Of a DNA stretch of 64,000 nt, positions 20,901-40,377 are shown one piece after another; position 1 is the stretch's first letter; each line of letters begins with the position of its first letter. Source of the stretch: Siderastrea siderea (taxonomy: Eukaryota; Cnidaria; Anthozoa; Scleractinia; Rhizangiidae). Where the stretch lies: contig OZ034977.1 of assembly GCA_964030785.1 (NCBI GenBank), forward strand, positions 33,706,152 to 33,770,151, in the 5' to 3' direction. The notes beneath the pieces are model-generated. The model was given only the letters and a program-made list of their open reading frames with translations, was not told the origin of the DNA and did no database searches. The translations under genes were made by a program, and so were the position numbers.

Positions 20901-23900
20901 TGGTAAAATGGTCAAAAACGTAGTTGTCGACAACTAAGCAGTTTCTCTTTTCGAAACGGGAAACTGGCTACAATGCAGTTGTTGACAACTAAAAATTTAG
21001 CGTTTAGACAACTAATCTCACACAGCGTTTTTTAGTTGTCTACAACTAAATGTCAAGTCTGTGGAGGCCCTAATGTTTCGTACATTTCTCTTCATTTGTC
21101 CATCTTCCAATGGAATGTAGGTAGCTCTTATGATGGCGTATTGTTTTCTTTGCAGGCCATTTAATGCCAGCTCTAAGCTATTTAGGCATTGTAGAGAGGT
21201 GCATTTAGTGGGACAGCCAAGACCAATTACCCAACAGCAAAGAAGCAAGTAAGTGAAGTGATGTTCGTTACCTGTTTAACTAGTTTAACCTAATAGGGTT
21301 GGACATGCAGGTCATTCGTTCGTTCCTTTTATAAAACCAGGCACCAGTAGATTTGCCAGTGTATGTGAAAAACAGCAAATCATGGTGGAGATCAGGGTAG
21401 AGCGGTCGCGTTATAGTTATTTTAAAAAGAAAATATGAACGTGTGTTTTGCTGGGAGCAAAGAAAGGATCCGTAACACAGACGTACAACTGGATACCATG
21501 CAAGTGAACCATTGGCCAATTCTGCAGCTTATTTTGATAAGACGTTTTGGTGGCAAATTTACCTGAAATGATTGTATGTTTGTAGGAACTATTTTCCAAA
21601 ACATCAGGCAGCACTGATCATACCTACATCAGAACCTCCATCAGCTCAGCGCAGCACAGGGACCCCAGTTAATGTCCAATCAGTGGGATCTAATGGGTTA
21701 CCAGGTCACTTGATGGGTCAGTTTGCTCAAGGCAATGCTGTAGCCAATCAAAATACTTATATAGGAGGACGGCTTACACCTCAAGCTATGCAACAAGGTA
21801 AACGAGCAGAGTTTAAGGACGTTCGACAACACAGATTTTTTTCCTACCTTTGCGACAGTCAAATAATGGGTTACCTTTGTCAGAAATGCAAAACACTGGG
21901 GGGTCACAGACTTCGTTTTCGAAATAAAGCGCGTGGAAAACTACCCCAATTTTGACAATTCGGTCCTCGTAACTCGACATAGCCTCAGTGGTTGTTAGTT
22001 GAAAAATATTGAAAATGATTCGCTGTAGACCCACTTTCTTAGTCAAATTTTATGTAAGTGGGTATTTCAAGTAAATAATTTGAACCGGTGTCATCCTTGC
22101 AGTGAAACTCAACCTTTAAGATGGGTTCTTGCGAACACCGTGCAGCTAAAATAACAGCGGAATTCGATTATGCGGGGGCAGAAAAGTTGAAAAAAATTAA
22201 ACTTCCACAACAAAGATTTTTCTTCAATTTTTCATAAAATGTAGATAATTCACAAAGAAAGTGATCTATCAAAAGAAAATGTGGGGTACCGAACATTTAA
22301 GATTGTTAAACCCGTACATAGCTATTAAAATGTCCACAAGCGTACATAGAGGTGGCATGACATCGCGACGTGAATTGCGTGCGCAGTAAGGATGCGCAGA
22401 AACAATTAGTGCGAACGTCCTTAAGTCAGATGTATCGTGAAGGCGTATATTTTTATACTTGACGTGTTTAGTCTTGTGTAAGTGAATGATCAGTGCAACA
22501 ATGATAAATCCTGACCTCTCAGATCTAGGATTCTTCCTTCTTTCCTTCCTCAGCTTTCCTTCCTTAGTTTTCCTTCCTTACCTTTCCTTCCTTCCTTCCT
22601 TCCTTCCTATACGTTTCCCAAAATGAGAGAACCGCAAAATTCTGTTAACGTGCTTTGAGTTTTGTTGCAAAACTTCGACCAGAACTAGTTTAACTTATAA
22701 ATCGCTTAAATTGATGGTTTATTTGGATGAAAACCGAGTTGCACGAGCGCTACGATCGGCCGAATAAAAGGGGTCCGTTCCTCTATTTTTGTTCCTTTGT
22801 TCCTATAATTGAATTAGGAACAAACCAGCTGTTCCTTTTCTGAAACAAAGGAACAGCTCTTAAACCGTACAAAGGAACGAATTTTGCACTATTCGGAACA
22901 AAAAAATACTGATTAGGAACCAAAAGGCCCCTTGTAATAACAAAGGAACGCATTGTTCCTAATCTGGCAAATCAGTTGGGCCTTTCTTGAGTAATTAGGG
23001 ACCTGAGTTCGTAATAATTTCATTCCTTTTCACATAAAGGGAACGAATTGTTCCCAATAATGAAATCGAATCGGAACCGTTGTTCCTATTAGCAGGATTA
23101 AGGAACCAACAGTTCCTATATTACTTAGTTCCTATTTCCAGTTAAGTTCTCCTTTAAGGTAATTGGGAACACCTGTTCCCATCTACTGAGCTTACATAGC
23201 TCAACAAGGAACTGTTTGTTCCTAATCGCATCCCAGTTAGGAACATTTCGTTCCCATGTCTTAATTGGACCTAACAAAAGGGGAACGTGAAGTTCCTTTG
23301 TTTGGAAATTAGGAACGTGCAGTTCCCAAATAAAAAGGAATTAGGAACAAGGTGGCCCTAAATAAAAGGTCACGTTTTGTTCCTATATGAACAAATGGGA
23401 TCATATTGTTCCTATAGTAATAGGAACATTTTGTTCCACTTCAACACAATTAAGAACAAAAAGTTCCTTTGGAACAAAACGGTCCTTTTCATTAAAGGAA
23501 CGTTTTGTTCCTATATGAACAAATGGGATCATATTGTTCCTATAGTAATAGGAACATTTTGTTCCACTTCAACACAATTAAGAACAAAAAGTTCCTTTGG
23601 AACAAAACGGTCCTTTTCATTAAAGGAACGTTTTGTTCCTATATGAACAAATGGGATCATATTGTTCCTATAGTGGTAGGAACATTTTGTTCCACTTCAA
23701 CACAATTAAGAACAAAAAGTTCCTTTGGAACAAAACGGTCCTTTTCATTAAAGGAACGTTTTGTTCCCATATGAACAAATGGGCTCATTTCTCGCTGACT
23801 CTCCTCTCAAGAAAGATGAGTAAAAAGTGCAAGCAAGTTGACTGGGCTAAAGTTGCAAAATCTTTGACCAAACCGAAAAGACTTCACTTGGAGAAAGATG

Positions 23901-26900
23901 AATCCGATGGTCTTTTTCACTGCCCAATACAGGCGTGCGATCACGATGGATTTGGGACTCAAAGAGGCTGCAGGAAACACGTAACTCGAAAACACCGTTG
24001 GTTCTTTTACTTTGATCAGAAACCAAGCAATGCAGAAATTGAGGCTAGTCAAGTAAACGACTGTAATGAAAGCCCAAAAAATCCAAGCCCACCAGCGCGA
24101 GCAAACCGATTCCAACCTTTGAACCATCGGGTGCAATCGCCAAAGAATTCCTTTCTTGGCTCACCGGGAGTGGCGGGGGCAAGAGCGATCGCAAAGCTCC
24201 GCAAATTGTCAGCAAAAGCCTTAAGTTTCTCAGATTTTGTTGTGAAGACGAAGACGAACTGACTTGGAAAAATGTCGACTATAGCTTATGCTCTCCTAAC
24301 CTCCTCTTTAAATTTGCTGATATGATGCAGGACACGTGGAATCTTGGACATGCTGGACGTTTAGGATACCTGGACGCCATTGGGGAGCTAGTGCAATTCA
24401 GAAAAGTCAGCGAAGGATTGTCAGATACAGTGGCTAGAGGATTAACTGTCACCGAGACGTACTTGAAAAGAGTTCGGCGAACAGTGTCTAAGATGATGAG
24501 ATTGCAGTGGACCAGCGATCTGGACATTGATGTTTTGGAAGCCAAGGGTCACTGGGCATCACTCGACGAACTACTGGAAGTTGTGTCTCATTACCTGCCT
24601 CGATATGAAGAAGTGCTTAAGAAATGCAGGGACAATCCAGGTAGTGTTTGCACGGGGGATTTGTCGTTTGCCACCAAATTTCTAGCCGTGTACTTGTTCA
24701 TTAAGGTAAAGGGCTACCGACCCATGACGTACCAGTACCTCACTGTTGACATGGTTCGTGCAGCGAAAACAAACGGGGGATTCATTGACCAGAAAATGTT
24801 TAAAACGGCAGGTAAATACGGATTTGACTCCCTCCTTTTAACCGACACTAACATGAAAGTTTTGGATGGATATATACATCACATTCGCCCTCTGCAGAAA
24901 CCAGTTTGCGACTACGTACTCGTGACGAGAAACGGAGGACAGCACAACAAGCTTGGAGAGCTGATGAGTAAACTGGTTTTTGATGCCATTGGAAAATATG
25001 TTCACCCGACGCGCTACCGCCAAATCGTCGAGACGGCAAGTTCCAACCAGCTCAGTGCAAAAGAACAAGACGCAGTTTCAGAGGATCAAAAACACAGCCC
25101 GGTTGTAGCAAGAGTGCATTATCAAAAGCAACGATCCAGAGAGGTCGCAACAAAGGCCCGCCAATGCTTGGATAAACTACATGGCGACAAGGGGACAAAG
25201 TTGGCAGAAGATGTAATTTCAAGACTGTCAGACATCTCGTCCGCCTCCTCTCAAGAACATGATGCGCACCATCTGTCCGGCGGTTCTACAGAAGAAGTCG
25301 AAAGTGCAGAGGAGGCGTTGCCACTAAAACGGGAATCCAATTTGGGTGAAATTCCAAGACTTACACGCCATCGCGCTTTCAAAGTGGCGAACATCGGTCG
25401 TACACGCAATAGAAAAAAAGCCCTCTTGTTCAACCAGGACGAAGACAGGTATCTCAAGGCCGGTCTCAAAAGGTACGGCTATGGTCAGAGGACAGCCATT
25501 CTAAGGGATTCCGAATTTCATTTCCAGAAAGGAAGGTCTTCTGACTCACTGAAGAAACGAGCGGCGGCCAAGTTTTGCAAAGACACGCGCTAGCTAAAAA
25601 CTTACTGCTACTATAGAACTGGAATTTCAAATACCGCCCTGGGAACCGCGCTTGCTTGCTTATGTGCCAATCAAACAGGCCTTCTTTGCGTGTGTGTTTC
25701 CCAAAGCATTTCGGGATGTTGCGTGTCACTATTTAGCGCGCAGACTTTAAAAGCCGGGCCTCTTTTCCTGCTGAACACACACCCGCTAAGATCATGGAGA
25801 CCATTGTAGATAAACATCCCGCTTTGTCGTTGCAAGACATCAAGTTTGCTGGAGAGTTTATTCATGGCATTTGCGAGCCATTTGGTTTTCCAAAATCGAC
25901 GGCCATGTTGGCAGAAAGCCTTTTTTGGAGGCATTTAAACAGAACAACGCAAAGGCAAAGGGCTACTCTGAGGGAGCTCATCTTGGCATGCCTTTTCATA
26001 GCCATTAAACTAGAAAGCAGCGACATTGCAAGAAATTCCTTGTTTATGGACGCTATTGCAACACCGGTTTCGAGGGATGTCATCATAGAGGAAGAACTCC
26101 GTGTGCTAGAGTCAGTAAATTGGAGGCCATTAGAACACGCGGACATGATTGCTCTTTAGTGTAGGAACCCACATAGTGATGGACTACTAATGCCTATATT
26201 AGGGGCTTTGTGAACAATTAATTATGTTCCTTTTTTTGTAAGGGAACGTTTGTTTCTTTCTAACACTGTTCCTGCTTTAAAAATTGGTTCCTTTTTATTC
26301 ACTTGAGGGACAATTGTTCCCATTAATGGTTCCGTTTTGAATGCAATGTTCCTTTTTATTGGCAAGTGGAACAGTTTGTTCCTAACCATTAGTTCCGATT
26401 TATGTAAAATGGTTCCTATTTAGAAATGACAGTTTCTTTGTACATCTTGTTCAACAGAAAACAATCTTCTTTTCTTGCCATCTATGGTTTTATCGCTTTT
26501 TAATTGGCAAAACGTTTGGTGTAGTGTTTTATGTTTCAAACATCACGAAGCAGAGTCAATAGCAGATTGTAAAAGACTTTTCGAGGCGCTTATAGACTTG
26601 TCCGGGAAAGGTTGAACATAATCGCAGCAACGCCATTTCTCACATTGAATTTGTAAATGTATTTAAGAATAATGAACACTGGGCAAGCAGAGGCATGCCT
26701 GAGCAAACACGGGCAAGTTGGGGCAGGTTTCGGCAAGTTGGGGCAGGTTGGGGCAAGTTTGAACTTGCACAATGCAGCCATTGTTTTTTGTCGCCTATGT
26801 GCTTTGTTCACTATTTATGACAACATGAAAAGTGGATTTTTTTTATTGTTGACTCGGGGAAGAACAGAAGCCTCTTTAAAAAAAGGGCTGGGCTGCGATT

Positions 26901-29900
26901 GACATGCGCACAAAAGGGACAATGATTTAACTTGAGAACCACTTGAGATTTTAATGAGGATCTTGTTAATTTCAAGATACTACCACTACTACTAATGCAT
27001 GAACGAAACTGACCTAGAAGCCATTAGTGTTTCACACAGAATACTATCATACTGTCGAGTCTTCACAATGAATTAATGGGCAAAAGCCTTCATAGCGTTA
27101 AGTGTCATTTCTTTGCTTAGGCTACTTTTGACTAGAGCAAAAGTACTTCAAGATGCTATTTTTGCACGGTTTCTTCGCTCCCTTTCCGTCAGGGAACGCG
27201 GGCCTTCGTCTCTTCTGGGCAAACTTTGAACAACCGGGAGGAGCTGTACTGGGTGTTTGCAGGCTTGGCAATGGCGTTATGAAGATGTCTCCGTCACTGC
27301 TATTCTCGTTCTCCGAGGTAGCACCTTGCACTGAGGGGACTGCCGGTTTGTCGGTAGCTGAAGGTATGGAATCCACTGATTCTTCGTAGGTGGTGCTGTC
27401 ATCTCCGTGATCTTCCGATCGGGAAGATTCGCCGAACTCGTCCTCGGTCGGCAGGACATGGAAGAGGCTGGTGACGAGACGCCTTTGTTCTTTTTTCAGG
27501 AGGCCCAGAGCAACGCACGATCGCTTCCTCTGCTCCAAGGCACACTGGCAACCGGCCGTACCATAATTCTGGTGAAATTGTCTCACCTTATCTCGCAACA
27601 CCTCGCGGTAGGCCTCCATGGACGCCCTTCTCTCCTGATTCAGGGCTGACCGCTCTAGTGTCCTGGTGAGCTTGTGAAGTTCCCGCTCGGTTTCTACTAA
27701 CCAGGGTGTTTGAAACGCGGCAAGTGCACTTTCTCGCCTTGTCTTCAACTCTTCTCGAAGGGCCTGCTGCTTGAAGGCGGCCAAGTCGTCTTCAGTTTGC
27801 GTAGGCATGGGTTCAGATGCATCCCTCGGAAGCAGGGCCACATGTTCGCTTGTGACGCCCTTCGACACGAGATTTTCCTGCCTTCGTCGGTACACCATCT
27901 CCTCTGCCTGCCTCCGTCTCTCTCGCTCGCTGAGTCGCGCATGCAACATGGCGGAAACTTGGCGGTGGCGGAGTGACTCCTGAGCGCACTGCTCCACAAC
28001 TCTCCTCAAAGCACTGACGGTCTGGTCGCCCTGACTTGCGTCCGAATCATCCTGAGTGTTTTCCGTTGCATCCTGAGCACCCATTCCGACAGTTGGGCGA
28101 TCACACTCATCCAGCACTTTGTCCAAGCTCAACGTGCGAAGCTCTTCCTTTTCTGTTGCTCCCAATACACCATCCTCCACGCTATCCTCGTCACTTAGCT
28201 CGTCCTCAGTAGCCGATGCCGTGCACCTCCTGGCTTGTGCGGCCGCCCACACAATGCACTCCATCGGGTGTCTTCGTAGCCATGTCGAGGCTCTTTTCTT
28301 GGGAGCCGGGAGACTCTTGAAGTTGTAGTTTCGAAGCCTACGATCCATCGCGGGCTGATCTTCAGGCTTGAACTCCAATTTGTTTTGTGCCGTTAACAAC
28401 ATGGGGCAGCGGTTGATGAACGACTTTGCTGTTTGATACTTCACATCGCATGCAGTATATCCCCCCTGGGTTAAGATTTTCCAGTCGTCGACGTCCATTG
28501 TGGACGTCGAAGCCTCGTCAATGAAGATCACTTCAGTGGATTTCGAGATCATGGCCTTGTTGAATACCCTTTGCTTGGTGATTGTTGCAATGTTTGTGTG
28601 GTGTACAAGCCCGAGGATGGGATGGAATAGGCTGGTTTTGCCGCTATTTGCATCACCAATGAGACATGGAACTTTGTCCTTGTGGCACTTTTTGTTGAAG
28701 TAGAGAAGCTTTAGGAAATCCTCGCAAAACTCACCAATTTCCACTTCTGAGAGGCTGTTTTCTAAAATTTCTTTGAAGTATTTGGGGTCAGGCTCTTTAG
28801 CTGGCTCGTACGTCGTGAAAGCTCTCGGAGAGATGATGCCTATCTTCGCGTCAGGAATTGGGTTCTTTACAAAGTGCCTTTCTTTAATGGACCAGCAGTG
28901 TCCGCCATTAACCTCGATTAGATTGTAGTCGATGGAGATTGGACGTACCACCTCGCAGTCTGGGTCAGAGAGTATGTCAATTATCTTTCTCATGTCCTTT
29001 AGTAGTCTTGCCTTAAAGAACTCGTTCGCTGCAAGGCTATCTATGAAAACTCGGACTTCGCACTTGTAAGCGTAAGTGTACATGGCCATGGGAACTTTCT
29101 TGTAGATTTTTCCGCGAAATAGAGCATACTCCATTTTCTTCATTGCCAATCCTACGTCGTTGACGAGCACAGTCAATTTATCCGACAGTCTTGCTTCTTC
29201 GTCTGCACTTTGTGCGTTGTCCTCTTCAAAACCAAACATATCGATGTCTAACTTCGCGTCTTGAAGCTTAGTGACGGACAACTTCAACGTGGAGCCGAAA
29301 TTCAAATTTGTGAGCCACACTCTGGTCACCTTCTCTGTTCCACAATCTTGCGAGTCCATCAAGTCTCCTTCGCCCAGCAGACTATCCATTTCAGTTCGGA
29401 AGCAGTATTCATACGAAGAGTTTACTAATTCCTGAATCATGGGGTTTTTGTGATCTTTTAAAACCTTGAACAATTCTTTCATGGCAGCCGACTCCTTCCC
29501 TTCATAGCAGGGTACCTGAGAACAGAATAGCAGCAAATCCATTACTTTGGTTTTGTGGCACTGTTAGAAGATTAAGTGTGTTGTGTTTTCTGTTTGGAAA
29601 TGTCTCGAAATATTGAATAGTGACTCTGAATGGTCCAACTTTAACACAACTCATTTCGATATCATGGAGTTCCGTTTTTTTCGCAGGATTTTCTCACCGT
29701 GGTTGTTGTTAAGGTGGTGTTCGAATGGTATTCAGCAATAAGCTATTAAAACGGACAGAAAACAAGGCCTACGTTTCAAATATGCTATTTATCCGAATAC
29801 ACAATACTTTGGAGAAACGATGTTAAAATGAACATTCACATACCTGTTGTGCCACAGTCTCCACGCCGCATTCCAAGAGCGCACGGTGAATTACGATGGG

Positions 29901-32900
29901 GTTTGCCGCTGCACCATTTGGCGTAGTTAAAGCTATCCAGTAATTGCTGCATGGGCATAATTTCTCATTGATGATTGTCGGATGGTTAGATATCCAATTT
30001 TGACTTGCTGTGCTTGCTACTTGACTGGATGTCAGTGCTTCATCATTGCTTTCATCACTTTTGTATTCCTCTGTGGTTGCTCCCTTTTTTCCTCGTCTTT
30101 TTTTAGGGCTTTGGGCACTTATAGCTCCAAAGAAAAATGCTACGTTTCTTACTCCTGTGGAAAAAAAAAACGATCATTCTTAAGCAACGAGACCTTCTTC
30201 AAGAATTGAAAGGAAAGACAGGAAATTGAGAAGCAAATTCTTACCACAGATTGCCTTATCACAAATGTCTCTGGTTTTACAGACGTTATACCAAGCTTTC
30301 TGTAGGCCTCCTTCGTCGATTTCACATATACATTGCGCTTTGACAATACTACACTTTCCAACGATGATAGGGCTCACAAAGCATAAAGCTGCACTCTTTA
30401 TGGCGTTACTGTTCAATTGCCGACAAGGATACCTCGTCTTGTTCATGTTGGGAATGATTTCTTCTCAGAACAGGCACAAATTTTATACGCAAATCTACTT
30501 GTGATAGTCAAGAGGAATAAATTTGAAAATCAAAGGAAACTGATAGAAGTGTTTAATTTGAGGTCCAAAGTTGTAACCTGCTTTAACACGCTACAGTCTT
30601 GCTGTTACCCCCAGAGATTTCCTATCATGTTTAGTGCAATTATTTCCCGGTTTTGTTATCTTGCCGCAACAAAGAAGCCTAATTACTGGCGAAAAACGTT
30701 TGAAGTATCCAAGGTCAAGTTCGAGCTTGTTTTTCATAGTTTTGATGTACATCACATAACGCAAAACAAACGATCGAAGTAACAGGTGTTGGTGTTGTTC
30801 GTTAGACTCCATGAAACACTGGTTCCATTATTTTCCGTGATAATAGGTAGCAATTAGCAGTCGAAGACTATTGAAGCAGCCCAAGCTCAATTCCATGTTT
30901 ATTTCACATTTGTTACGGACTTTACTAAGCATCGCAAAATCAAGAAACAAATGTCTCGATTACTTGGTGCGAAATTTGTTATTTGCACTTTTTCATGACA
31001 AAAAGGGGTAATAATCGTCTGGTACCGTCAGGGTCATTTGTTAATCATGTTGTCATATTTCATAAAAGTTGACAATGAAAATTTGTTCATGAATCTAAAT
31101 CGCTGGGTGGAGGTTCTTTTGTCCGCAAATACCACGAAATCCGCCCTATCTACAGTTTTTTTCGGACAGCAAGAAGTTCCACTCTCTGACAACGTGCTAG
31201 TTCACCAGCAGAATTTGTACATGCAAGTGTTAGATAAATGTTATTTATACTTCTCACTCTCTCTTTTTTTTTTTTTTACTTTAACTGTCTTCCGATGACC
31301 ATGAAGACATCTACACTGTAAAAGAGCAGTATCAACCCATTCACTCCTAGGAGTGACCAGCATTTAAATTCTCCTCATCATTTTAATACACTGTCAAGGA
31401 GACAAATAATGAGAATTAAGAAAATAATCAATTAGGGAATACGGTCTTGATTTAACGCCAAATTCTCAGGAACGGCCAACAAAGAAATGTATGGTTATCG
31501 GTTAGAAGAATGAGAACTGGTAATGGGAGTGAAAGGGTTAAGTCATATTTGTATAAAACATTTACGTAAAATCCGTGAAATCCCGCCCAACCACAGATTT
31601 CTCGCTGGCCTTTGTACTTCCAGTTTGAAGTGGAAGTTGACAGGGTGATTTTGTTGTTTTTCTAAAATGCGGCGGATTTTACGGATTTCACGGATATTTA
31701 GAACATACATGATTTAATACTTCCTTTTTTAACTGCAAGTATCTTATGTATGTAATATATTCATATATTCTCTTCAAAGATGTTTGCAGTTTAAAGTCTC
31801 CGTAAAATCCGTGAATCCCGCCGTAACCACAGATTTCTTGCTGGCCTTTGAACTTCCAGTTTGAAGTGGAAGTTGACAGGGTGATTTTGCTTTTTTTCTA
31901 AAATGCGGCGGATTTTACGGATTTCACGGATATTTAGAACATACATGATTTAATACTTACTTCCTTTTTTAACTGCAAGTATCTTATGTATGTAATAATA
32001 ATAATAATAATAATAATGTAATAATGTATGTAATATATTCATATATTCTCTTTAAAGATGTTTGCAGTTTTAAAGTTTCCGTAAAATCCGTGAATCCCGC
32101 CCTAACTACAGATTTCTTGCTGGCCTTTGAACTTCCAGTTTGAAGTGGAAGTTGACAGGGTGATTTTGTTGTTTTTCTAAAATGCGGCGGATTTTACGGA
32201 TTTCACGGATATTTAGAACATACATGATTTAATACTTCCTTTTTTAACTGCAAGTATCTTATGTATATAATATATTATATTCTCTTCAAAGATGTTTGCA
32301 GTTTAAAGTTTGCGTAAAATCCGTGAATCCCGCCCTAACCACAGATTTCTTGCTGGCCTTTGAACTTCCAGTTTGAAGTGGAATATTTAGAACATACATG
32401 ATTTAATACTTCCTTTTTTAACTGCAAGTATCTTATGTATGTAATATATTCATATATTCTCTTCAAAGATGTTTGCAGTTTGAAGTTTCCGTAAAATCCG
32501 TGAATCCCGCCCTAACTACAGATTTCTTGCTGGCCTTTGAACTTCCAGTTTGAAGTTGAAGTTGACAGGGTGATTTTGCTTTTTTTTTCCTAAAATGTGG
32601 TGGATTTTACGGATTTGGCGGTGTTCTGAGAGTTTCCTTTCAAGAAGTGAACTTTTAATCAAGAGAGGACTGTTTTGGACCTCTTTCTTCATTCTCAGAG
32701 TTTCGAGGACATCTATGAAATTAATGCTCTTAAATTCAGCGAGCAAACTCAACGGAAACCAAAAGCACTCTTAACGTAATGTGTGTCATCATCTCTGTCC
32801 AGAGATGATGGCAAACACTTGTGTATCATGGAACAAGATCGCTCTGGATTAACCCAAGTTCTGCTGATATAAATGTACGGCCAATATCTTTTAATACTGT

Positions 32901-35900
32901 TATAGGAACAAGTGTGCCTTTTCATAACAGTTCCTCTTAAGAGGAACGCCTTTAAGCAAAAACATCCTGTCTGAGTTGTATTTTTTAGCCAAAAAAATAG
33001 GAAAACGTATTTTCGGACATAGCCCTACATAAAACTACAGGGAAACACAGTTATGGAGAGATTTTCGCGGTAGTTGGTATTATTTTAAGGCTTTAAAGGA
33101 AGGAACTGAAATTTTGGGAAACGATCCTATACGTTTCCCAAAATGAGAGAACCGCAAAATTCTGTTAACGTGCTTTGAGTTTTGTTGCAAAACTTCGACC
33201 AGAACTACTTTAACTTATAAATCGCTTAAATTGATGGTTTATGTGGATGAAAACCGAGTTGCACGAGCGCTACGATCGGCCGAATAAAAGGGGTCCGTTC
33301 CTCTATTTTTGTTCCTTTGTTCCTATAATTGAATTAGGAACAAACCAGCTGTTCCTTTTCTGAAACAAAGGAACAGCTCTTAAACCGTACAAAGGAACGA
33401 ATTTTGCACTATTCGGAACAAAAAAATACTGATTAGGAACCAAAAGGCCCCTTGTAATAACAAAGGAACGCATTGTTCCTAATCTGGCAAATCAGTTGGG
33501 CCTTTCTTGAGTAATTAGGAACCTGAGTTCCTAATAATTTCATTCCTTTTCACATAAAGGGAACGTATTGTTCCCAATAATGAAATCTAATCGGAACCGT
33601 TGTTCCTATTAACAGGATTAAGGAACCAACAGTTCCTATATTACTTAGTTCCTATTTCCAGTTAAGTTCTCCTTTAAGGTAATTGGGAACACCTGTTCCC
33701 ATCTACTGAGCTTACATAGCTCAACAAGGAACTGTTTGTTCCTAATCGCATCCCAGTTAGGAACATTTCGTTCCCATGTCTTAATTGGACCTAACAAAAG
33801 GGGAACGTGAAGTTCCTTTGTTTGGAAATTAGGAACGTGCAGTTCCCAAATAAAAAGGAATTAGGAACAAGGTGGCCCTAAATAAAAGGTCACGTTTTGT
33901 TCCTATATGAACAAATGGGATCATATTGTTCCTATAGTAATAGGAACATTTTGTTCCACTTCAACACAATTAAGGACAAAAAGTTCCTTTGGAACAAAAC
34001 GATCCTTTTCATTAAAGGAACGTTTTGTTCCTATATGAACAAATGGGATCATATTGTTCCTATAGTAATAGGAACATTTTGTTCCACTTCAACACAATTA
34101 AGAACAAAAAGTTCCTTTGGAACAAAACGGTCCTTTTCATTAAAGGAACGTTTTGTTCCTATATGAACAAATGGGATCATATTGTTCCTATAGTAATAGG
34201 AACATTTTGTTCCACTTCAACACAATTAAGAACAAAAAGTTCCTTTGGAACAAAACGGTCCTTTTCATTAAAGGAACGTTTTGTTCCTATATGAACAAAT
34301 GGGATCATATTGTTCCTATAGTGATAGGAACATTTTGTTCCACTTCAACACAATTAAGAACAAAAAGTTCCTTTGGAACAAAACGATCCTTTTCATTAAA
34401 GGAACATTAGGAACAAAGAAGTCCCATTTACTTGAAAGCAATTGGAGTGCTTGGGGAGGGGGGGGGGCATATCGCATTGAACTTCATTCCGCCTAAACAT
34501 GCTAGGGCAAGTTTGAGCACGCTTTTTGGATTATGCTCGCCTTCGCCTTTCTATTGGACAAGATGCACTTGGGTTCCCAAAGGGGCTACAACATGTTCAG
34601 GGCACGTTTGAACAAGGTTAGTATATTTGCCTTGCTATTGGTCAATCGGGAGTTTCGTACTCTTAGGGACACAAGGATCGTATAAAACAACTGGCAGGTG
34701 AGTGTATGCTCATTTCTCGCTGACTCTCCTCCCAAGAAAGATGAGTAAAAAGTGCAAGCAAGTTGACTGGGCTAAAGTTGCAAATGCTTTGACCAAACCG
34801 AAAAGACTTCACTTGGAGAAAGATGAATCCGATGGTCTTTTTCACTGCCCAATACAGGCGTGCGATCACGATGGATTTGGGACTCAAAGAGGCTGCAGGA
34901 AACACGTAACTCGAAAACACCGTTGGTTCTTTTACTTTGATCAGAAACCAAGCAATGCAGAAATTGAGGCTAGTCAAGTTAGCGACTGTAATGAAAGCCC
35001 AAAAAAATCCAAGCCCACCAGCGCGAGCAAACCGATTCCAACCTTTGAACCATCGGGTGCAATCGCTAAAGAATTCCTTTCTTGGCTCACCGGGAGTGGC
35101 GGGGGCAAGAGCGATCGCAAAGCTCCGCAAATTGTCAGCAAAAGCCTTAAGTTTCTCAGATTTTGTTGTGAAGACGAAGACGAACTGACTTGGAAAAATG
35201 TCGACTATAGCTTATGCTCTCCTAACCTCCTCTTTAAATTTGCTGATATGATGCAGGACACGTGGAATCTTGGACATGCTGGACGTTTAGGATACCTGGA
35301 CGCCATTGGGGAGCTAGTGCAATTCAGAAAAGTCAGCGAAGGATTGTCAGATACAGTGGCTAGAGGATTAACTGTCACCGAGACGTACTTGAAAAGAGTT
35401 CGGCGAACAGTGTCTAAGATGATGAGATTGCAGTGGACCAGCGATCTGGACATTGATGTTTTGGAAGCCAAGGGTCACTGGGCATCACTCGACGAACTAC
35501 TGGAAGTTGTGTCTCATTACCTGCCTCGATATGAAGAAGTGCTTAAGAAATGCAGGGACAATCCAGGTAGTGTTTGCTCGGGGGATTTGTCGTTTGCCAC
35601 CAAATTTCTAGCCGTGTACTTGTTCATTAAGGTAAAGGGCTACCGACCCATGACGTACCAGTACCTCACTGTTGACATGGTTCGTGCAGCGAAAACAAAC
35701 GGGGGATTCATTGACCAGAAAATGTTTAAAACGGCAGGTAAATACGGATTTGACTCCCTCCTTTTAACCGACACTAACATGAAAGTTTTGGATGGATATA
35801 TACATCACATTCGCCCTCTGCAGAAACCAGTTTGCGACTACGTACTCGTGACGAGAAACGGAGGACAGCACAACAAGCTTGGAGAGCTGATGAGTAAACT

Positions 35901-38623
35901 GGTTTTTGATGCCATTGGAAAATATGTTCACCCGACGCGCTACCGCCAAATCGTCGAGACGGCAAGTTCCAACCAGCTCAGTGCAAAAGAACAAGACGCA
36001 GTTTCAGAGGATCAAAAACACAGCCCGGTTGTAGCAAGAGTGCATTATCAAAAGCAACGATCCAGAGAGGTCGCAACAAAGGCCCGCCAATGCTTGGATA
36101 AACTACATGGCGACAAGGGGACAAAGTTGGCAGAAGATGTAATTTCAAGACTGTCAGACATCTCGTCCGCCTCCTCTCAAGAACATGATGCGCACCATCT
36201 GTCCGGCGGTTCTACAGAAGAAGTCGAAAGTGCAGAGGAGGCGTTGCCACTAAAACGGGAATCCAATTTGGGTGAAATTCCAAGACTTACACGCCAGCGC
36301 GCTTTCAAAGTGGCGAACATCGGTCGTACACGCAATAGAAAAAAAGCCCTCTTGTTCAACCAGGACGAAGACAGGTATCTCAAGGCCGGTCTCAAAAGGT
36401 ACGGCTATGGTCAGTGGACAGCCATTCTAAGGGATTCCGAATTTCATTTCCAGAAAGGAAGGTCTTCTGACTCACTGAAGAAACGAGCGGCGGCCAAGTT
36501 TTGCAAAGACACGCGCTAGCTAAAAACTTACTGCTACTATAGAACTGGAATTTCAAATACCGCCCTGGGAACCGCGCTTGCTTGCTTATGTGCCAATCAA
36601 ACAGGCCTTCTTTGCGTGTGTGTTTCCCAAAGCATTTCGGGATGTTGCGTGTCACTATTTAGCGCGCAGACTTTAAAAGCCGGGCCTCTTTTCCTGCTGA
36701 ACACACACCCGCTAAGATCATGGAGACCATTGTAGATAAACATCCCGCTTTGTCGTTGCAAGACATCAAGTTTGGTGGAGAGTTTATTCATGGCATTTGC
36801 GAGCCATTTGGTTTTCCAAAATCGACGGCCATGTTGGCAGAAAGCCTTCTTTGGAGGCATTTGAACAGAACAACGCAAAGGGAAAGGGCTACACTTGGGG
36901 AGCTAATCTTGGCGTGCCTAATCATAGCCATTAAACTGGAAAGCAGTGACATTGCAAGAAATTCCTCGTTTATGGACGTTATCTCAACACCGGTACCGAG
37001 GCATGTAATCATAGAGGAAGAGCTAAATGTTCTGGAATCGGTTAACTGGAGGCCCTTGGAACATTGTGACATGATCGGGCTCTAAGCAACGCTTAATGCA
37101 GCATCGACGCAGATCCTACACTGGTGCCAAAAACAGATATCGTAGAAGAGGAGCTTACAGTACTGGAATCAGTGAATTGGAGACCCCGTGGAATACTACG
37201 ACATGATAGGACTTTGATATCTCACTGTATGTAAGAACAACTCAATTAAACGTATTCAATGCTATGCTCAATTTACTTTAATTCGTTACAGTCACATTTC
37301 AGTTTACATTGCTTTATGGAAAAACTTTCTGATTTGAGTTTGTCCCCGGGGCAGCTTGTTTGAAGGCCTTGTTTTCATCGCCTTTTTAATTGGTTGGGAG
37401 CGAACTTTGAGCCCACCCCAGGCCTGCGACGACGTGTAGTCCTCGAACGGCGCTCGTCTTTTTCTGGTAGGCGACTCGCGCAGTAAACCATCAGCTGTTA
37501 AAACAGACTGACTTGAAGGCGTTTCCACCACGTCCCCTTCGGCGAACCCACTTGAGAAAAGAGACTCCTATAGTTCTGATGATAATCAAATGACAACAAA
37601 TTAAAACAATTTAACACAGGGACTTCTATGAAAGGTTAGAAAATCGAGAAATTGTTTGGCATGACATTAACGGGACTCACCCATTTCTTTCTCGCTGCTC
37701 ATCATCGGTGGCTGATGCAGATCGCCTTCATCCTCGGTACCCGGCGCGTGTTCTGTATAATGGAAAAAAGAAAAAAAAACACGATTTGTTTAGACAAACA
37801 GCGCAGGCGAAAAGCAAAAATTTCAACGCACTCACAAATTGAACAGTAACACAATTAGTAACATAACACGGGCTGAAAGAAAATTGTTTGCGACACACAA
37901 CATATCCCCGGTGGCTTACCCAGTTCATCGTCTTTTTCGGGATCCTCTTCGTCCTCCGTTTCGCACAAGGGCAAGGGCTCAAAGGCACTCGTCACTAAAT
38001 AGGCGTGTTTCTGTTCTATGAGACCCCATTCTATGCATGCCTTTCGTCTCTCTTCTACGATTGTGGCGTACTTTAGGTTGCCGGCATTTTCATGATGCAT
38101 TTTGAGCTTGTACACGAGAATCTCGATGTAGCTTTTGAGGTCGGGAATCTCACTACGGGCGACTACGCAAGTAATAAATTGACTATTATGATGTCGAGAT
38201 ACGTAACTTGCATTCTCTGTATGACCTAAATCAACAAATGCTGCACTTGATTGAAGACGGGTATATAGCGACGAACAGTTTTCTCTTTATTCGACGGAAA
38301 CTACGGATTTCACGGAGTAGACGGTTTTCTTTATGCTAATCATAAGATGATAATGAAATTCATGAAATCCGTATTGACCGTCAATACCGTCGAATCCGTT
38401 CACTTTCACCAAGTCTTTTAACGAGGGAAAATGTATTGACCACCCCTCCCCTTCATATTTTTTAACGGACAACGAGCTTTAAACATTTTTCTCTTAATTC
38501 AACGGATTCTACGGATTTCACGGAGTAAGCGGATTCCTTGATGCAAATTTTTAAATGACATTACAATCAGATTGAATTATTATTATAGTAATTATTATCT
38601 TTATTATAATAATAATAATAATG

Positions 38624-38681
<58 letters not shown>

Positions 38682-38694
38682 TTATTCATTATTC

Positions 38695-38742
<48 letters not shown>

Positions 38743-38759
38743 CATTATTCATTATTCAA

Positions 38760-38804
<45 letters not shown>

Positions 38805-40377
38805 TATTATTATTATAATAAAGATAATAATTATTATAATAATAATTCAATCTGATTGTAATGTCATTTAAAAATTAGCATCAAGGAATCCGCTTACTCC
38901 GTGAAATCCGTAGAATCCGTTGAATTAAGAGAAAAATGTTTCAAGCTCGATGTCCGTTAAAAAATATGAAGGGGAGGGGTGGTCATTACATATCCCCTCG
39001 TTAAAAGACTTGGTGAAAGTGAACGGATTCGACGGTATTGACGGTCAAGACGGATTTCATGAATTTCATTATCATCTTATGATTAGCATAAAGAAATCCG
39101 TCTACTCTGTGAAATCCGTAGTTTCCGTCGAATTTATATAAATTATGACAACTTGTAAAAATATCCGTTTCCCTTACACAGGATACCCAGATCCGTTGGT
39201 TCATGGCGATCCCAATGTTGCCCAACAAACATAGGAACACTTAGTTCCTATATTTGCTGTTCCTAACCAGTTGGACCCTGCGTGCAAAATACTAGCGATT
39301 GCAGTGCCGAGGAGAGATTGTTTCGGGAAACATCATGACAAATCGATAGTTTTTTAGAAATTTCCTCGAATATCAATTACAACGGAATAGTGTTGTTGTG
39401 GAAATCTGAAAACAAGTTGCTTCGATAAAAAGGAACAGAATTTTGGGAAACGATCCTCCCTTCCTCGCTTCCTTCCTTCCTTCCTTCCTTCCTCGCCTCC
39501 TTCCTCGCTTCCTTCCTTCCTTCCTTCCTTCCTTCCTTCCTCGCTTCCTTCCTCGCTTCCTTCCTTCCTTCCTTCCTTCCTCGCTTCCTTCCTTCCTTCC
39601 TTCCTTCCTTCCTTCCTTCCTTCCCTCCCTCCTCCCTCCCTCCCTTCCTTCCTTCCTCTCTTCCTCCCTCCCTCCCTCCCTCCCTCCCTTACTCACTCCC
39701 TTCCTTCCTTCCTTTGTTCCTTCGCCTGCAGATGATTTTATTGTTGTTCATTTGTAGCACTTTACCAAGGGAGCAGTGGAGCCAGTGGCATGACACAAAA
39801 TAACCCAGCACAGGCAGCAGCCATGCTGCAGAGACAGATGAACATATCAACGCAACAAACACCAGCCGTCGCACCAGGTGAACCATTGATTAGTGCGAAT
39901 CCTTATTCCTGAACAATTACAATTTGAACGTACAAAACTCTATCTTCGAATGCCATGTCTTGTAAAACACAGTTTCTTTTTGTACAGTTGCTTAAGTTAG
40001 TCGGTTCTTTTAAGAAAAACCCTATTCAGACCGGGCATTTTTTTGGTCTTCTGGGACCGGGGGGGGGGGGGGGGGCTGATTCGGCCCCCACCTCTTAACT
40101 CCGAGAATACTAAAGCTATGACAACGGCAGATAATACGTCAAAAAATGTTTCCTTTGAGGTCCTCAACATAAGCTGATGACGTCATATGACGTAACAATT
40201 ACGTCAGGTTCAAAAATGGTGGCCATCTTGGATCTGCTATCTTGGATTTCTTGATTTTCTAGAACCTTTGAAATTTGCCAAAATTCACCATAAATTAACC
40301 GAAATCAATAAAAGAACAAAAATGATATAAAAATGTAAAACGTACTCAGAAAAGTAATATTTTTTCAATGAGAATGA

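Follow-up and report, generated by a model that had tools for sequence, protein, structure and literature searches.

Cryptons, transposons that move by a tyrosine recombinase (YR) and comprise CryptonF, S, A and I (Kojima and Jurka 2011, PMC3212892), are proposed to pass through a circular intermediate, have short crossover repeats and have been reported from cnidarians including Nematostella. In the available text of that paper, YR sites are described as two inverted repeats of 11–13 bp around 6–8 bp, and animal Cryptons are without terminal repeats or a C-terminal domain; the words "helicase" and "Myb" have 0 occurrences in its main text. According to the available parts of two further papers, some Polinton-like viruses encode a YR and a superfamily 3 (SF3) helicase in one integrating eukaryotic element together with capsid proteins and a packaging ATPase ("cyclin" has 0 occurrences there; PMC4642659), and endogenous nimaviruses, with genomes of about 280–400 kb and possible concatemers or episomes, carry YRs with a C2H2 domain that are not closely related to Cryptons and are tied to insertion into telomere-type (TAACC/GGTTA)n repeats (PMC10871703). 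Here we analyze 64,000 nucleotides of the coral Siderastrea siderea (GCA_964030785.1, contig OZ034977.1, positions 33,706,152 to 33,770,151, forward strand; hereafter the window), for which a reading of the letters alone, denoted the original prediction, had proposed an apparently undescribed recombinase element with an SF3 helicase, a cyclin and C-termini of the PCNA-interacting peptide (PIP) type. A single mobile element does unite a recombinase with an SF3 helicase, a cyclin and a helicase tail of PIP-like form; it belongs to a real and sizeable family and is most likely YR-mobilized with a replication gene of its own. To our knowledge, no animal DNA transposon brings together a lox-like site for recombination, a replicative helicase of its own and a cyclin.

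The original prediction treated 22609–39453 as one element. The mobile-element ends and the genes were found there, but the interval consists of two head-to-tail elements, denoted A and B, joined at 33111–33144; a single element spanning it was rejected, and B lacks most of the helicase. Both elements open with CGTTTCCCAAAAT and close with ATTTTGGGAAACG, the two arms being exact 13-bp reverse complements, and the first 300 bp of A and B are 99% identical. At the junction the arms enclose the 8-bp spacer ATCCTATA. The loxP site has the same 13–8–13 layout with inverted arms; profile comparison, in contrast, detected no similarity between the coral recombinase and Cre. CCTT microsatellites flank the A plus B span on the outside. 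As to the 4–6 bp direct repeat expected at both termini of a Crypton, TCCT is present at both termini of the window elements, but two relatives pair a left TCTT with a right TCCT.

To find copies, a genome of 830.9 Mb in 402 contigs was searched. Allowing one mismatch, the right-end pattern was located 34 times (31 of them with identical 19 letters), versus 0 for the reversed control; the left-end pattern occurs at 120 places with at most two mismatches (100 of the 120 listed), 32 of them exact, versus 3 for the reversed control. The 13-bp ends exceed chance expectation. Pairing of the 32 exact left ends with the 31 right ends yielded 15 elements with both ends, most exact left ends having no right partner by the exact pattern. 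All 15 contain recombinase and cyclin and 12 of the 15 a helicase match; the three without helicase are about 6.3 kb each. Because the genes recur between paired ends in this way, we regard recombinase, cyclin and helicase as parts of the element and not as passengers, in agreement with the expectation of the original prediction that they lie inside the same ends in other copies.

A broader view came from a recombinase search with 88 matches listed (74 of 702 candidates scored), of which 74 were kept in a table joined with helicase and cyclin matches; 14 short C-terminal pieces and second helicase or cyclin pieces were left out. Among the matches listed, 35 of the 37 recombinase rows of at least 93% identity have a cyclin within 1.5 kb, one further row has it at 1.6 kb, and 5 of the 37 have a helicase by the first helicase query. 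The rows of 61–70% have a cyclin in 6 of 37 cases, a helicase in 21 of 37 and both in none (queries used, matches listed). A diverged subfamily (recombinase 70%, cyclin 67%) also contains helicase sequence in several pieces, as seen at L060, one of these six cyclin-bearing rows. Twenty-three cyclin and 25 helicase rows stand without a partner in the joined table; with 74 of 702 candidates scored, some linkage is missed, but genuine orphans may be among them.

The recombinase of B, encoded by an open frame, has 592 residues with a C2H2 finger, a central catalytic-type region and a C-terminal Myb domain. The frame of A is broken, and open copies exist elsewhere in the genome. In 23 aligned rows, the R-H-R-Y set of YRs, assigned by eye, comprises R302, H397 and R400 (23/23 each) and Y436 (22/23), accompanied by K330 (23/23) and H427 (21/23). 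The catalytic motifs and the end architecture make a tyrosine recombinase the most likely identity, although profile support is absent, and its chemistry would be that of a YR. Pfam finds Myb in 22 of the 23 relatives. Among solved structures, the Myb of the gene at 34741–36519 is closest to TRF1/TRF2 (best E 1.1e-4). This resemblance prompted a look at telomere repeats as a possible array unit; the candidate was not adopted because the 24 TTAGGG/CCCTAA places are scattered over the window.

The YR-like catalytic residues and the short crossover core liken the coral elements to Cryptons, which, with the report of Cryptons from Nematostella, would suit an ordinary Crypton-type transposon that had picked up host or viral genes as passengers. 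This explanation we judge quite unlikely: between the paired ends, recombinase and cyclin are present in 15/15 copies and a helicase match in 12/15, helicase or cyclin is also found in diverged subfamilies, and the cyclin has a dN/dS of 0.13 (one pair). Moreover, the inverted 13-bp arms, the Myb domain and the site array of the coral elements, together with their SF3 helicase and cyclin, contrast with the animal Cryptons of PMC3212892 as far as its available text describes them, and no integrase family, neither PF00589 nor one of the DUF3504 type, was found in the 23 recombinase relatives (Pfam, E up to 1). The label Crypton-type given by the original prediction is not supported, and we file the family among the YR mobile elements and not with the Cryptons.

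The helicase open reading frame (ORF; 27122–29563, minus strand) matches Pfam DUF5906 (E 1.4e-6) and Parvo_NS1 (E 2.5e-4) above the cut-offs and PPV_E1_C (E 2.1e-3) below the curated one. Its Walker A (GxxxSGK), Walker B (E...DEA) and motif C (CPM..T.Q) are invariant or nearly so across 40 aligned relatives; these motifs and the weak profile matches resemble papillomavirus E1 and parvovirus NS1. In the N-terminal part, profile searches recognized no known origin-binding or nickase family. Upstream exons probably extend the gene to about 30446, as backed by spliced coral proteins. A second helicase type, ∼36% identical to the first and with the same layout of upstream exon and main exon, is found in an array on C11 and at 18 places at ≥97%. 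Helicase tails were surveyed in the best 120 of 169 relatives. A relaxed PIP-like motif lies in the last 20 residues of 79 of the 120 listed (a count that carries no shuffle control), and the [QKM] form in 30 of them, versus 0.28 on average and 3 at most when the last 20 residues are shuffled; among tails of the SQ type, 67 of 71 carry the relaxed motif within the last 24 residues. The original prediction gave the element PIP-type C-termini. The helicase tail is PIP-like and could bind PCNA, but neither the recombinase nor the cyclin C-terminus matched by eye.

The profile matches to parvovirus and papillomavirus helicases raise the question of a capsid-less DNA-virus relative (Polinton-like, nimavirus-like or papilloma/parvo-like) turned transposon. 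As cited above from the available text, some Polinton-like viruses join a YR to an SF3 helicase. The YRs of nimaviruses, with their C2H2 domain and insertion into microsatellites, are by description the nearest precedent for recombinases that bear such a domain and target such repeats. We nevertheless consider a viral origin unlikely. A Pfam scan of 6 main and 10 small ORFs revealed no capsid, polymerase, packaging ATPase or protease family, which distinguishes the coral element from Polinton-like viruses as described in that text and agrees with the original prediction that, with no capsid or DNA polymerase gene, a plasmid-like life fits better. The same scan showed no reverse transcriptase family, the mark of DIRS/Ngaro, and no Pfam family (E up to 0.1) was assigned to any of the ten small ORFs of A. 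Two viral_contigs scans, each with two short peptide patterns, detected no relative, and PHROGs gave no match below E 0.08. With about 9–10.5 kb and three genes, the coral element also differs from the nimaviral genomes of PMC10871703.

The cyclin gene starts about 200 bp downstream of the recombinase gene. Pfam assigns it to Cyclin_N in both elements (A, E 2.4e-10, 40.7 bits; B, E 1.4e-8, 35 bits; curated cut-off 23), and its best matches among solved structures are viral cyclins, from which it differs in having a single box. The dN/dS of 0.13 between A and B, obtained from this one sequence pair, indicates purifying selection and argues for a functional cyclin. The gene is present in the subfamilies with TCCT and TCAT cores.

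To examine integration sites, 20 of the 34 right-end places were fetched and, with that of the window, comprised 17 external ends, 3 tandem junctions and 1 non-fitting place, which was dropped. The external ends are followed by at least 18 pyrimidines in 20 positions in 16 of the 17 cases and by 17 in the remaining one. By comparison, 18/20 is reached at 0 of the 345 other TCCT sites of the window, a control that covers one window with the tracts beside the insertion excluded, TCCT itself being part of the search pattern. At 30 recombinase loci (L009–L038), the left end was seen in 27, with the core TCCT in 23 and TCTT in 4, and 18 were tandem junctions. Twenty left ends picked for CTT all have T as the preceding base, and 7 of them are tandem junctions. 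In a three-unit array at C7:37056218-37076393, the spacers are ATCTTTCA and ATCTTCCA instead of ATCCTATA and resemble the CTTT/CTTCC host flank. A subfamily with the core CCACCA has 3 of 3 left ends in CAC/CAT tracts; of its right ends (17 of 29 places fetched), 16 lie in such tracts and 1 is a tandem junction. Its junction, TTTGAGAAATG-GCCACCAG-TATTTCACAAA, has an 8-bp spacer between related but imperfect arms. In a further subfamily the core is TCAT, as seen in 3 of 3 left ends. The core of the spacer is similar to the host target: TCCT and TCTT are found mainly in CT-rich tracts, and CCACCA in CAC/CAT tracts. Two presumed elements, at C1:1351988-1357603 and C9:36216929-36222634, have unlike cores, with TCTT at the left end and TCCT at the right end.

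Per 100 bp, the identity of A and B is 98–100% between the start of the recombinase gene and about 25915, a point within the cyclin gene; it then falls to 83–89%, beyond which the two are unalignable. Nearly one and the same recombinase module is hence followed by two or more helicase types and by several types of right end. On this point the possibility has to be weighed that the recombinase-cyclin element and the helicase element are separate repeats that landed together, as might be suggested by nearly identical recombinase-cyclin modules beside two helicase types that are only ∼36% alike, and by the unpartnered cyclin and helicase rows. We regard it as highly improbable, given that order and orientation are constant inside the same ends and that the mosaic breakpoint within the cyclin gene fits recombination between relatives. 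An indirect sign of linkage comes from other assemblies: among the matches listed, recombinase and helicase relatives lie on contigs of equal length in 4 cases (21,646; 81,048; 831,635; and 2,264,954, the last Porites lobata for both genes), versus 0.02 expected under a log-uniform model.

The species-named relatives among the matches listed are all anthozoan (Oculina, Acropora, Montipora, Porites, Desmophyllum and Nematostella). The cyclin search gave 11 relatives, none species-named, so that the three-gene set is thus far demonstrated in the present genome only. No description of the combined gene set was found in the literature searched, which lay outside Repbase and most subscription papers, nor in the available text of PMC3212892, PMC4642659, PMC12220804, PMC11071296 and PMC10871703.

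Seven units of the C11 array are 99.93–100% identical over about 4.3 kb, and such near-identical copies suggest recent activity. The same identity could be read as a sign that tandem arrays are assembly or duplication artefacts, uninformative on circles. Against this stand the junctions in the window and in L017, L024 and L033, where different right-end types meet one and the same left end exactly at the lox-like site, and those of this kind in L022, L025 and L034, which have changed arm letters; simple duplication does not produce them. Such junctions point to site-specific entry or recombination between ends and not to duplication alone, and an artefact is in our view very unlikely. Left ends with a TCTT core that are spaced ∼5.4–5.7 kb apart, at C2:17850589-17867603 and C10:40027328-40038163, suggest a shorter relative in tandem arrays.

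We consider it probable that the family integrates site-specifically, that its own recombinase moves a circle and that the helicase probably replicates this circle with host polymerases. The recombinase would excise and insert the circle at the lox-like site of two inverted arms and an 8-bp spacer, and a circle that enters a resident element would generate tandem arrays. The SF3 helicase with its PCNA-box-like tail would probably replicate the excised circle, perhaps starting at an array of GGAAC/GTTCC sites beside the recombinase gene. The cyclin of the TCCT and TCAT subfamilies would probably bind a host cyclin-dependent kinase (CDK), either licensing the helicase or favouring S phase. More tentatively, the family might be an animal counterpart of an integrative plasmid, an episome that replicates itself, encodes a recombinase, a helicase and a cyclin, has an iteron-like origin, integrates into microsatellites similar to its crossover core and swaps replication modules with its relatives. 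Replication of the circle, if real, would make it a plasmid-like replicon living in animal chromosomes and a possible bridge from YR transposons to small DNA viruses. Subfamilies that differ in their core offer a natural experiment on target choice.

Several observations weigh against this reading. The circles, the origin, replication, the effect on S phase and the binding of PCNA and CDK are all deduced from sequence. Of the family assignments, those of cyclin and helicase are backed by profiles above cut-off (Cyclin_N, DUF5906 and Parvo_NS1), but Pfam and hhalign give the recombinase no support: PF00589 or another integrase family appears in 0 of the 23 relatives, and comparison of the recombinase profile, a shallow one (Neff 1.9), with lambda Int, Cre and seven PF00589 ORFs of the genome yielded hhalign probabilities of ≤1.1%. 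The strict Q-type PIP, Qxx[ILM]xx[FY][FY], is carried by only 14 of the 120 listed helicases and the [QKM] type by only the 30 mentioned. At least one derivative did not need the helicase in cis in order to spread: the copies at C12:22675605 and C14:21810260 share one helicase-deletion junction and have unlike left flanks, and therefore this helicase-less derivative has moved; the deletion in B is its own, separate event. In the CCACCA subfamily, the joined table and locus checks revealed no cyclin beside the recombinase, and the cyclin therefore looks accessory there. A recombinase of the TCCT group lies upstream of only 8 of the 17 external right ends, and 2 of the other 9, with TCCT, lie 5.6–5.7 kb past a left end with a TCTT core; such cases show that the two ends need not carry identical cores. 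Three of the 17 external right ends have near-identical flanks, which may not be independent of one another. The left side is less clear-cut: pyrimidine-rich external left ends number 6 of 9 in the TCCT group (L009–L038), and at least 17 of 20 pyrimidines are reached at 8 of 13 in the TCTT group. No right end of the TCAT subfamily was found by pattern; two places that matched on C8 could not be linked to these elements. Finally, the arrays could stem in part from unequal crossing over.

Coordinates of the features in the window (positions of the 64,000-nucleotide stretch)
Feature	Position	Strand	Remarks
Element A	about 22609–33124		recombinase, cyclin and helicase
Element B	about 33129–39453		relative of A with most of the helicase deleted
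Crossover core TCCT	22605–22608	+	left host boundary of A; host CCTT tract on its left
Left 13-bp arm of A, CGTTTCCCAAAAT	22612–22624	+	
GGAAC/GTTCC array, A	22776–23780	+	many GGAAC-N5-GTTCC palindromes; approximate borders; candidate origin or binding region
Recombinase gene, A	23816–25593	+	C2H2 finger, YR-like core and Myb domain; frame interrupted near 24.07 kb
Cyclin gene, A	25794–26159	+	121 residues, one cyclin box
SF3 helicase main exon	27122–29515	-	C-terminal PIP-like KNSILKYF; open frame to 29563; 5' border from splice signal and homology
Helicase upstream exon 2	29844–30154	-	borders inferred from splice signals; coral protein P0006 aligns 30446–29841
Helicase exon 1 with start codon	30245–30446	-	inferred borders
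Direct repeats with ACGGATTT units, near right end of A	31561–32621	+	three repeat families
A/B junction	33111–33144	+	arm ATTTTGGGAAACG (13 bp), spacer ATCCTATA (8 bp), arm CGTTTCCCAAAAT (13 bp)
GGAAC/GTTCC array, B	33296–34400	+	approximate borders
Recombinase gene, B	34741–36519	+	open reading frame
Cyclin gene, B	36720–37085	+	Pfam Cyclin_N
Second-type helicase remnant, B (C-terminal part)	37855–38166	-	remainder deleted relative to L039
Large inverted repeat, B	38280–39142	+	385-bp arms, 96% complementary; AT-rich (ATT/AAT) centre near right end
Right 13-bp arm of B	39440–39452	+	followed by ATCCT, then host CCTT tract

The GGAAC/GTTCC array adjoins the recombinase gene as a dense cluster in the three subfamilies examined. 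Half-sites reach 42 per kb in 22611–23815 of A and 38 per kb in 33131–34740 of B, compared with 3.0 in the rest of A, 1.5 in the rest of B and 1.3–1.4 in the flanks, and all 29 GGAAC-N5-GTTCC palindromes of the window fall inside the element span. In the TCAT subfamily, 26 sites occur in about 720 bp at three loci that are ∼99% alike, and the array of the CCACCA subfamily is dense too. We propose the array as a candidate origin or accessory region of the recombinase. Rfam gave no match within 22000–40000. Units of the type TGGATT that look similar to the ACGGATTT repeats of A are found in L061. Sequence similar to the inverted repeat of B with its 385-bp arms is present in L039, and the repeat might form a cruciform or an unwinding region.

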